Below are positions 40,484 through 41,792 of a DNA stretch of 64,000 nt, one piece after another. The notes under the pieces are model-generated. The model saw only the letters and a list, made by a program, of their open reading frames with translations. It was not told the DNA's origin and did not search any database. A program made the translations under genes and the position numbers. Each line of letters begins with the position of its first letter. Position 1 is the first letter of the stretch. The stretch comes from Litorihabitans aurantiacus (GTDB lineage: Bacteria > Actinomycetota > Actinomycetes > Actinomycetales > Beutenbergiaceae): assembly GCF_030161595.1 (NCBI RefSeq), contig NZ_BSUM01000001.1, positions 620,001-684,000 of the forward strand, in the 5' to 3' direction.

Positions 40484-40548
40484 GAGATGCGACTTCCGCG
40501 CCGAGATGCGTTGTGGAGGTGTGCATCTCGGCGATCGTGTCGCATCTC
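40484..40548. repeat. 65-nt nested palindromic element, copy A
   Basis: Outer arms GAGATGCGAC (40484-40493) and GTCGCATCTC (40539-40548), 5-nt internal loops on each side, inner arms CGCCGAGATGC (40499-40509) and GCATCTCGGCG (40523-40533), and a 13-nt apical loop. It lies 84 nt past the stop of the DUF559 gene. It aligns without gaps to a second 65-nt palindrome at 41728-41792 (37 of 65 identical) with compensatory changes in the stem, so the two are copies of one structured element. The rest of the 40349-40631 gap holds only the adjacent hexamer repeat and no gene. Confidence 0.8.
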
Positions 40549-40590
40549 GATGCCGATGCCGATGCCGATGCCGATGCCGATGCCGATGAC
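40549..40590. repeat. (GATGCC)6 hexanucleotide repeat
   Basis: Six perfect GATGCC units (40549-40584) followed by GATGAC, starting at the base after palindromic element A. The unit begins with the same GATGC core found in the element's arms, so it may have grown by slippage from the element's edge. Non-coding. Confidence 0.85.
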
Positions 40591-40631
40591 GACGCCGGAC
40601 AGCCGCGGTGTCGCACGAGCGCGGCGGGGTT

Positions 40632-41594
40632 TCAGCCGGTGGCACGGTGACGCACGAGGCGTCGCAGCCGTACGACGAGGGCATCTCGATCACGGAGGTC
40701 GCTCCACGTGAGGTGCAGCACGACCCACCCGGCCCGCGCCAGGGCCGCTTCACGCCGTGACGTCCGGTTCACCTCGCGCGTCAGCTCCTCGCCACGGAGC
40801 CGGGCGAGCTTGACTGCGCCGTCGAACTCCACGGCCACTCGCATCTCCGGCCACGCGATGTCGAGCTCCACCCTGCCGATCTCCGTGTCCACCAGGTGCA
40901 GGGTGCGAGGCAGCGGTAGGCCGTCGGCCACCGCCACCGCGCGGACGAAGGACTCACCCGGCGAGTGCACCTGCGCCGTGGCGATCTCCATCGTGCGTCG
41001 GGCTGCGCGGACGCCCCTTGCGCCCGTGACGGTTGCGATGCGTCGAAGAACGTCCTCCCGGTCCGCTCCCATGCGGAGAGCGGAGTCGACCAGCACGACG
41101 GACTCCACGAGCGGGAGCGTTCGCGCACAGTCCGCCACCGTTCGTTCGATGCAGGTGACACGGACGTCCTGGTGCAGGCGGATGTCGCGTGCCTCGAGCG
41201 GCGTGTGGTGGACGCGCAGGTGCGGGGACGGCCGGTGGCCGGTCGACGGTGGCGGCGCCGTGACGTGGACCGGCAGCCCGGCACCGAGGATCCAGCACCC
41301 CAGGAGGAGGGCGGCGGTCTGGTGGGAGAAGGGAAGATCGGTGCGCGCCATGTGCGAGTGAGCCCGGACGTGCTGCAGGACGAGCTGGCTCCGCCTCTGA
41401 GCGCTGCTGGCGCCCGCATCGGGAGGCGCGGCCAGCACTCCAGGACGGAGGGCGACGAGGTCACCGTTCTCGAGCAGGCGTGCGGCGTCGCGCCGCGGGA
41501 GGTTGCGCGTGGGCACGACGGTCGGCAGGTCGAGCGGGGCCATGGGCAGCCCACGGGTAGGAGACGCCAGTCCGTGCCAGGAGTCCAGGAGCAT
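40632..41594 (-). CDS. DUF559 (Vsr-like) nuclease-domain protein with AbiEi-type N-terminus
   Basis: Protein of about 320 aa. The N-terminal part has a winged-helix-like segment (PRRDAARLLENGDLVALRPG) as in AbiEi-type antitoxin domains. The C-terminal DUF559 domain (about residues 235-320) shows RVELDIAWPEMRVAVEFDG, REVNRTSRREAALARAGW and VVLHLTWSDLRD, the spaced acidic residues of Vsr/restriction-endonuclease-like folds. No cognate toxin is adjacent. Start ATG 41594 (MLLDSWHG) or ATG 41543 (MAPLDLPT); neither has a clear ribosome site. The gene is flanked by two copies of a 65-nt palindromic element. Such orphan genes are widespread in Micrococcales and their function is not known. Confidence 0.83.
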   Translation of the reverse strand: MLLDSWHGLASPTRGLPMAPLDLPTVVPTRNLPRRDAARLLENGDLVALRPGVLAAPPDAGASSAQRRSQLVLQHVRAHSHMARTDLPFSHQTAALLLGCWILGAGLPVHVTAPPPSTGHRPSPHLRVHHTPLEARDIRLHQDVRVTCIERTVADCARTLPLVESVVLVDSALRMGADREDVLRRIATVTGARGVRAARRTMEIATAQVHSPGESFVRAVAVADGLPLPRTLHLVDTEIGRVELDIAWPEMRVAVEFDGAVKLARLRGEELTREVNRTSRREAALARAGWVVLHLTWSDLRDRDALVVRLRRLVRHRATG

Positions 41595-41727
41595 GGTCAG
41601 AGCCTGGCCGGGGCGGCCGATCTCCAGCTGCGACACCCGCTCGACTGTGGACCTGGACGCCGCCCCGCCGACCTGGGGACAGCTCGTTCCGGCTGCGGCG
41701 AGCGGCACCGGCCGTCGAGGCGAAGCC

Positions 41728-41792
41728 GAGCAGCGACATCGTCGTCGAGAATGCCGCCGCGGTGTCGCTGTTCGACGACGGTGTCGCTGCTC
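41728..41792. repeat. 65-nt palindromic element, copy B
   Basis: Arms at 41728-41748 and 41772-41792 are 21 nt and complementary except for one T-G pair, with a 23-nt centre that holds a further GGTGTCGCTG copy. Same total length as element A at 40484-40548. Alignment shows paired substitutions at stem positions 4/62, 5/61 and 18/48. It lies 134 nt upstream of the DUF559 start. The 41595-41958 gap otherwise holds heptamer repeats and the proX terminator; no gene is seen. Confidence 0.8.

Follow-up and report, generated by a model that had tools for sequence, protein, structure and literature searches.

DUF559 nuclease-like genes flanked by private palindrome pairs in actinobacteria: a candidate repeat-nuclease unit resembling REPtrons

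A DUF559 nuclease-like gene in the window (the whole analyzed stretch of DNA, 64,000 nucleotides in length) was found to lie between two related palindromes, and many of its homologues have palindromes on either side with a motif own to each gene. The arrangement is read here as a chromosomal unit of nuclease and palindromes whose mode of action resembles that of a REPtron, but with an unrelated enzyme. The probability of this reading, in which binding, cleavage and transposition are inferred, is put at roughly 0.6. The observations comprise the association of gene and palindromes, the privacy of the motif, its dispersal in a few genomes and the absence of the unit and of one solo copy at the matching sites of relatives, and nothing else. 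An earlier note on this DNA had guessed at a repeat-nuclease element; this guess is well supported, and the matter is larger than was stated there.

Palindromes and nuclease-like gene in the window

The palindrome-bearing proteins carry the signature E.[DH]G..KY and are referred to as KY-type. In 3 of the 20 aligned proteins the last two letters are KL, and other DUF559 proteins have an H there. The features of the window locus are as follows.

40484 to 40548, no strand: palindrome copy 1, 65 nt, downstream of the nuclease gene, with four subsites (40484-40493, 40503-40512, 40520-40529 and 40539-40548)
40632 to 41594, minus strand: KY-type DUF559 nuclease-like gene, 320 aa, with KL in the window member
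40641 to 40964, minus strand: C-terminal nuclease-like domain, approximately residues 211-318, with the invariant residues and a weak PF18741 match (residues 241-305)
41013 to 41330, minus strand: AbiEi-antitoxin-like region, residues 89-194 (PADLOC AbiEi model, E 6.9e-9)
41728 to 41792, no strand: palindrome copy 2, 65 nt, upstream of the nuclease gene, with the variant motif GAGCAGCGAC and four subsites (41728-41737, 41747-41756, 41764-41773 and 41783-41792)

The coordinates and the exact length of 65 nt given for both palindromes in the earlier note were correct. The gap-free identity of 37 of 65 positions was recomputed as 0.57, and the paired changes at 4/62, 5/61, 18/48 and 24/42, which keep the pairing, were confirmed directly from the letters. 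The palindromes consist of four subsites of about 10 nt with a repeat distance of 19 nt, one pair being direct and the other inverted. The subsite sequence is GAGATGCGAC in most copies of the window's genome, and the palindromes of the window family end in GAG...CTC. The window pair is among the more degenerate ones, the best common 14-mer of the two copies agreeing in 11 of 14 letters. The start codon of the nuclease gene was picked by homology; the open frame runs on to 41933.

The gene order is DUF3499, a 60-aa gene, the unit and a glycine-betaine-type ABC operon with OpuAC first. When the five neighbours were compared with Pfam, DUF3499, OpuAC, BPD_transp_1 and ABC_tran/CBS were found, and one protein remained without a match. 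This is the 60-aa neighbour (zero Pfam matches), which we take to be Trm112-like. No AbiEii (DUF1814) toxin gene was detected by Pfam among these five neighbours of the window locus, the only locus searched. A known RNA family as source of the palindromes was rejected since no Rfam family matched in the window, and a tRNA-linked origin was rejected since the window holds no tRNA. A (GATGCC)n-like tandem repeat at 40549-40590 abuts palindrome copy 1.

Copies of the window motif in its own genome

A pattern taken from copy 1 only matched 5 genome sites exactly (backward control: 0) and 7 sites with up to 3 mismatches. The covariance model, which was built from the pattern-found copies together with copy 2, was used to score 150 of 20,356 first-look candidates; it returned 8 sites at 61-80 bits, all of them copies used to train it, and the best score beyond these was 21.5. 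Two of the 8 sites (C1:50685 and C1:3650362 in G000, the window's genome) lie in 16-kb surroundings that are 99.96% identical. This pair is probably due to contig-end redundancy in the assembly, leaving 7 distinct sites. All 7 copies are 65 nt long; two flank the nuclease gene and five are solo. With these 7 copies of one length and a backward control of 0, the palindromes can be regarded as real and not as chance GC-rich sequence, as the earlier note had held.

Near the five solo copies, no DUF559-type frame was found by regular expression or tblastn. The idea that all DUF559 genes are accompanied by palindromes of a single motif was rejected on this ground. Two further observations were made. 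Three palindromes of the same genome (L019:14395, L019:14519 and L021:8069) carry the CGAGTTCG(GG) motif, which belongs to the syntenic nuclease of the relative G001; no nuclease of this motif was seen in those 16-kb stretches of L019 and L021, and the palindromes are possibly fossils of an earlier motif at the window locus. A 67-nt palindrome (L018:6977-7043, 97% paired, GAGGAAGAAGC) lies at a distance of about 1 kb from a solo and has a motif unrelated to that of the solo.

Private palindrome pairs beside KY-type genes

Homologues of the window protein were found in 19 of 24 family genomes. Their flanks were searched with a palindrome detector that looks for subsites repeated at about 19 nt and had 0 hits in a control sequence of 185 kb, shuffled as 2-nt blocks. 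The palindromes of the window's relatives are about 60-72 nt long and have four subsites. Among 22 KY-type genes of the family, 13 had palindromes on both sides, 11 with a shared motif, and 5 were one-sided. A shared motif was defined in this set as at least 13 of 14 common letters, compared with 11 for the window pair. None of 10 other (non-KY) DUF559 genes had a pair and 2 had a palindrome on one side; the non-KY signature was read for 8 of the 10, with L006 and L069 untyped.

At the level of the order, the 20-row alignment matched in 223 of 297 genomes (E<=1e-20), representing 78 of 95 genera. These are homologues of any kind, palindrome-bearing or not. The flanks of 90 order loci were analyzed with a palindrome threshold of score >=37. 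The loci are a choice from the listed matches (30 returned and 60 further listed), and some repeat genes of the family set. Palindromes were present on both sides of 52 loci and on one side of 20, while 18 had none; 48 of the 52 had a private shared motif. For 1,818 control positions the corresponding numbers were 293 with at least one palindrome, 22 with palindromes on both sides and 0 with a shared motif. The controls overlap (one per 100 nt) and stem mostly from the window's genome, so they are not independent trials. The left and right palindromes of the same gene had 13-14 of 14 letters in common in 48 of 52 loci, compared with 6 of 407 pairs from different genes.

The enrichment near DUF559 genes on which the earlier note had made its proposal depend was therefore strong per gene and private motif (48 of 90 loci versus 0 of 1,818 controls), and not for the window motif, the five solo copies of which in the window's genome do not lie next to other DUF559 genes. 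A lone palindrome beside a gene has little meaning, given the 293 control positions and the 2 of 10 other DUF559 genes that also have one. The two copies have no fixed orientation relative to each other: of the 52 loci, 24 aligned better as direct and 16 as inverted copies, with 12 ties. Motif distance and protein distance were modestly linked (Spearman 0.31; 200 chosen pairs from 52 genes).

Domain composition of the proteins

The AbiEi models of PADLOC matched all 20 aligned proteins (best E 9.3e-15). The Pfam matches of the 20 members were weak and comprised AbiEi_1 (5 proteins), AbiEi_4 (4) and the MTES_1575 REase family (4; best 2.9e-6). The window protein alone matched the nuclease-domain Pfam model at E 0.032, under the curated cut-off, and none of the aligned proteins matched NCBIfam. 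The homologues found by tblastn include canonical DUF559 proteins. Four residues of the C-terminal part (E214, D245, E256 and K262) are invariant in the 20 proteins.

A helix followed by three strands, two helices, one strand and further helices is expected for a PD-(D/E)XK core. This order was obtained for the C-terminal part from a two-row model, which is too poor to rely on (mean pLDDT 44.8). No solved relative was found in the PDB by profile up to E 5. No Y1 transposase was among the Pfam matches of the 20 members, and a conserved HUH motif could not be identified: 18 of 20 proteins are without H-hydrophobic-H, and L056 and L082 have one each.

Dispersed copies and a palindrome-first route to the nuclease

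GTDB r220 was scanned with the outer 10-mers alone, which returned 17 contigs. Fourteen belong to one MAG labelled Micrococcales (Lab288P3bin128, WRCL01), whose name presumably points to termite gut, and hold 17 copies, all of 66 nt. Two contigs are from the MAGs CAN_BIN10 and CAN_BIN24, and one Rhodospirillaceae match (63 nt, non-palindromic) is due to chance. One nuclease relative was detected on these contigs by tblastn with the window protein; it is located at L049:452-1174, between palindromes at 271 and 1410. Since the palindrome-only scan used no gene information, it represents an independent route to the nuclease link.

In the relative G003, the nuclease at C1:817 kb has flanking palindromes with GAACCTCG. 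This motif was found in palindromic spacing 9 times in G003, two of them beside the nuclease, and all 9 copies are 66 nt long although 64-70 nt were allowed. The remaining 23 genomes of the family gave no more than three single matches of 68 nt (G009, G015 and G018; backward controls 0), which by eye are non-palindromic inside, so that no palindromic copy of GAACCTCG was present in these genomes. The relative G002 has a solo palindrome (L027) with the motif of its own nuclease, L059. Further copies in related genomes, which the earlier note had made a test of its proposal, are thus present, with 9 copies of its own motif in G003 and 17 copies in Lab288P3bin128.

Further same-motif copies, mostly extragenic, were seen in at least 4 genomes, and with a crude gene model 28 of 31 copies are extragenic. 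One solo (L174) is squeezed between convergent genes. The number of distinct copies including the flanking ones is low, with 7 in G000, 9 in G003 and 17 in Lab288P3bin128, and only a few genomes were counted. In G012, the solos L031, L035 and L036 carry the motif GAGATCGGAC, for which no cognate nuclease was found among the G012 nucleases examined; the prediction that the third nuclease of this genome (C14) would bear the orphan motif failed, C14 carrying TTCTCGTACC.

Other palindromes were noticed during these searches. Lab288P3bin128 contains a second, 60-nt family of four-subsite palindromes (L039:2605 and L045:2177; AGCTGATGCTTC) and near-identical palindromes around an AAA_14/DUF4143 gene (L048:3024 and L048:4707). 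A perfect 61-nt four-subsite palindrome was found in G006 (L032:1501-1561), where only one homologue of the nuclease is present (E 4.2e-28).

Comparison of the window locus and a solo site with relatives

For the window locus, matching 7-kb stretches from 12 relatives were compared. G001 has a unit in the same slot with a different motif; its protein is 50-51% identical, compared with 69% for the OpuAC gene. Judged from these syntenic orthologues of G000 and G001, the motif apparently can change while the unit stays put. In G022 a homologue lies in the same neighbourhood in another slot, and in the other 10 of the 12 relatives no nuclease homologue was found in the matching stretch. In G023 the counterpart of the 60-aa gene stands directly beside that for OpuAC with no unit in between, and in G002 a cation-efflux gene occupies the slot; the nuclease homologues of both are located elsewhere in each genome. 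No palindrome was found by the detector in the G023 or G002 slot. In these two relatives the palindromes are thus missing along with the gene, in line with the expectation of the earlier note. The sites without unit were defined by the flanking genes and are not base-exact.

The solo site C1:561552 of G000 has a PIN-domain gene on one side and a gene for a solute-binding protein on the other, an arrangement that is syntenic in G001 and G002. The unaligned interval measures 159 and 208 nt (G001 and G002) versus 414 and 478 nt, and the detector found no palindrome at the matching site in G001 or G002. The alignment is ragged and no target duplication was readable. With the covariance model, neither G001 nor G002 yielded the window motif at any other place. 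Neither transposition nor excision was observed, and the compared sites showed neither a target-site duplication nor a base-exact empty site.

Carriage by phage or plasmid was rejected, since one query gave no relative in viral contigs and plasmid records gave few and weak matches (3 and 5), of which the three opened look chromosomal. These three records (NZ_LT559118.1, NZ_LR134451.1 and NZ_LR134465.1), filed as plasmids, resemble chromosomes in their size or in the genes they hold (rpmG, hadAB, tatB).

Covariation of the palindromes

The covariation in G000 alone is weak against 500 shuffles: the score was reached in 15, the number of double-change cells in 56 and the number of pairs with double changes in 372 of them. 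In the 17 copies of Lab288P3bin128, 96.6% of the cells are paired, compared with a shuffled mean of 94.3, and 13 double-change cells were counted, compared with a shuffled mean of 4.9. Neither value, nor the score, was reached by any of 500 shuffles. The pairs with double changes (102/500) and further pair types (240/500) were not unusual. The conserved fold that the earlier note had deduced from covariation is therefore clearer in this MAG (cells and score, 0/500), whereas support from the window's genome is weak. All 13 double-change cells are located in the spacer between subsites. Folding, or correction of an arm against its partner, could each be sufficient to explain this spacer covariation.

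Terminal inverted repeats in other clades

When the search was widened to the class, homologues were found in 107 of 246 genomes at E<=1e-40. Shared palindromes were present at 7 of 24 loci not already seen. The raw tally of 10 of 29 was corrected because L245 is an artefact (truncated, with one palindrome counted twice) and L238 and L266 repeat order loci. Other class loci have terminal inverted repeats with a private interior, and their tip is mostly AATGATCACGTTCA and at some loci TTGATCACGTTCA or AATGATCATGTT. In nine such loci, the identity of the left and right ends was 0.89 within a locus compared with 0.58 between loci. These nine were picked by TGATCA[CT]GT at both ends, so the likeness of their tips is by choice, although it was first seen without it. 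L249 was dropped from the set because its right end is off-pattern, though its ends have 49 nt in common.

The longest exact word shared by the flanks reached at least 19 nt at 39 of 112 loci and at 0 of 419 controls. With the looser cut of 13 nt, 90 of 112 loci and 158 of 419 controls were positive, so words of this length are common in controls too. The controls are from the window's genome only, and the 112 loci include five class-search repeats of order loci. Two KY genes of Tsukamurella tyrosinosolvens, WP_074850915.1 (hypothetical) and WP_074851054.1 (AbiEi family antitoxin domain), have flank-shared words of 27 and 34 nt, and a Nonomuraea HH-type gene has no such word common to its flanks. 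The proposal of an undescribed element in Micrococcales is thus supported as to the repeat-nuclease unit and too narrow as to its range, given the relatives spread over the class and those in Tsukamurella.

Comparison with known systems

RAYT genes have REP palindromes or terminal repeats on their two flanks (PMC3733652, PMC3116915, PMC8266576), and REPtrons are repeat-specific where a species contains several GTAG families (PMC3733652, PMC3116915). It is also reported that the RAYT gene tree follows the species at species level (PMC3116915, PMC3733652) and that RAYTs keep the HUH motif and the catalytic tyrosine (PMC3733652). The units described here are similar to REPtrons in having a lone gene flanked by cognate short palindromes and non-autonomous extragenic copies elsewhere, and in being repeat-specific in species with several repeat families. 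The resemblance to REP elements with RAYTs suggested in the earlier note thus holds for the architecture, with an unrelated enzyme. Unlike RAYTs, the 20 aligned proteins have no conserved HUH motif and no match to a Y1 transposase model. The palindromes of KY genes also differ in having four subsites each and counted copies of 7-17, and the ends of the window family are without GTAG, the other families having been read by eye only.

In the TIRtron, a RAYT-like gene lies between long terminal inverted repeats, some with a reported GGGGWSAS tip motif (PMC3733652). The likeness consists in one enzyme family with palindromes or terminal inverted repeats, depending on the clade; the enzyme is another one and the tip of the KY loci is mostly AATGATCACGTTCA, not GGGGWSAS. 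Terminal inverted repeats around a gene also recall insertion sequences and DNA transposons, in other clades only, and the near absence of relatives from viral contigs (none, one query) and plasmid records (few and weak) differs from a typical transposon.

The AbiEi-like region is shared with the antitoxins of type IV toxin-antitoxin systems, and a Tsukamurella relative is annotated as AbiEi family antitoxin domain-containing. In contrast to these antitoxins, a nuclease-like domain follows the AbiEi-like part, palindromes lie on both sides and no AbiEii-type gene was found among the scanned neighbours in the window. The canonical DUF559/Vsr-like endonucleases are homologous by tblastn. They differ in the signature, which is E.[DH]G..KY (or KL) in the KY proteins, whereas the canonical ones have an H at the second or third position behind DG. 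They also differ in the palindromes, which are found at both ends of KY genes and are paired at 0 of 10 other DUF559 genes.

No paper describing the nuclease-palindrome unit was found in the open-access literature, judged by titles and the beginnings of abstracts. The unit looks undescribed so far, and it looks like a selfish or domesticated repeat system.

Proposed mechanism and alternative explanations

For a unit that works like a REPtron, the following course can be proposed. Binding of the subsites would fall to the AbiEi-like part, which would probably act as a dimer or tetramer, either on double-stranded DNA or on an extruded hairpin, and the nuclease-like domain would nick or cut at the element. 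A break or hairpin intermediate, or its repair, may then lead to the copying of the short element into new intergenic sites, and by the same route the two gene-side copies may be kept alike. The gene itself would mostly be inherited with its locus and rarely move, like RAYT genes.

The main rival is autoregulation, which appears unlikely but deserves to be taken seriously. An AbiEi-type regulator would use the palindromes as operators, the solos would be its regulon or worn-out operators, and the nuclease-like domain would serve another task, e.g., defence. The match of the AbiEi models to 20 of 20 aligned proteins fits this explanation, as do the four subsites at a fixed 19-nt spacing, which resemble cooperative operator sites. 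AbiEi of other bacteria was described to bind inverted repeats and thereby to repress its own operon (PMC7319586). Operators do not explain why another copy lies downstream of the gene, why other clades have terminal inverted repeats, why the spacer outside the subsites has compensatory changes or why the solo L174 sits between convergent genes. Chance palindromes or ordinary GC-rich terminators beside an unrelated gene are hardly tenable by comparison. Such palindromes are common in GC-rich intergenic DNA, as seen from the 293 of 1,818 controls with at least one and the 22 with both sides. They are at odds with the fixed length and four-subsite design, with the both-side shared motif at 48 of 90 genes versus 0 of 1,818 controls, and with the 0 hits of the detector in 185 kb shuffled in 2-nt blocks. 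Because of the control counts, this explanation is refuted for the family.

A role in genome defence or addiction is doubtful and ranks below autoregulation. Here the nuclease would be a toxin or resemble a restriction enzyme, the palindromes would keep its activity in check or direct it, be it as decoy DNA or as transcribed hairpins, and the fast motif turnover would reflect an arms race. The AbiEi profiles that match are contained in PADLOC-DB, and the motif is private and differs even between syntenic orthologues at 50-51% protein identity. The window neighbours (DUF3499 and a glycine-betaine-type ABC transporter) include no defence genes, though, the solos lie at unrelated intergenic sites, and relatives are few and weak in plasmid records and absent from viral contigs (one query).

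Significance of the proposed nuclease-palindrome unit

Beyond the locus itself, a class-wide actinobacterial family is conceivable in which a Vsr/PD-(D/E)XK-type nuclease with an AbiEi-like part disperses its own private hairpins; REP/REPIN biology would then have been invented twice, the second time with an unrelated non-HUH enzyme, and protein specificity and palindrome would co-switch rapidly at fixed loci. The odds of this wider proposal are judged to be about even. Many actinobacterial genes that now bear the labels "hypothetical" or "AbiEi family antitoxin domain" (the two labels seen) would form one system. If this is true, the family offers a readable code, in which the candidate recognition element of each gene stands beside it in duplicate, and the 48 protein-motif pairs would be material for learning how the DNA-binding part reads DNA. 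The unit would also provide a possible second origin of REP-like repeats for comparison with RAYTs, and perhaps a nuclease family with long, predictable targets.
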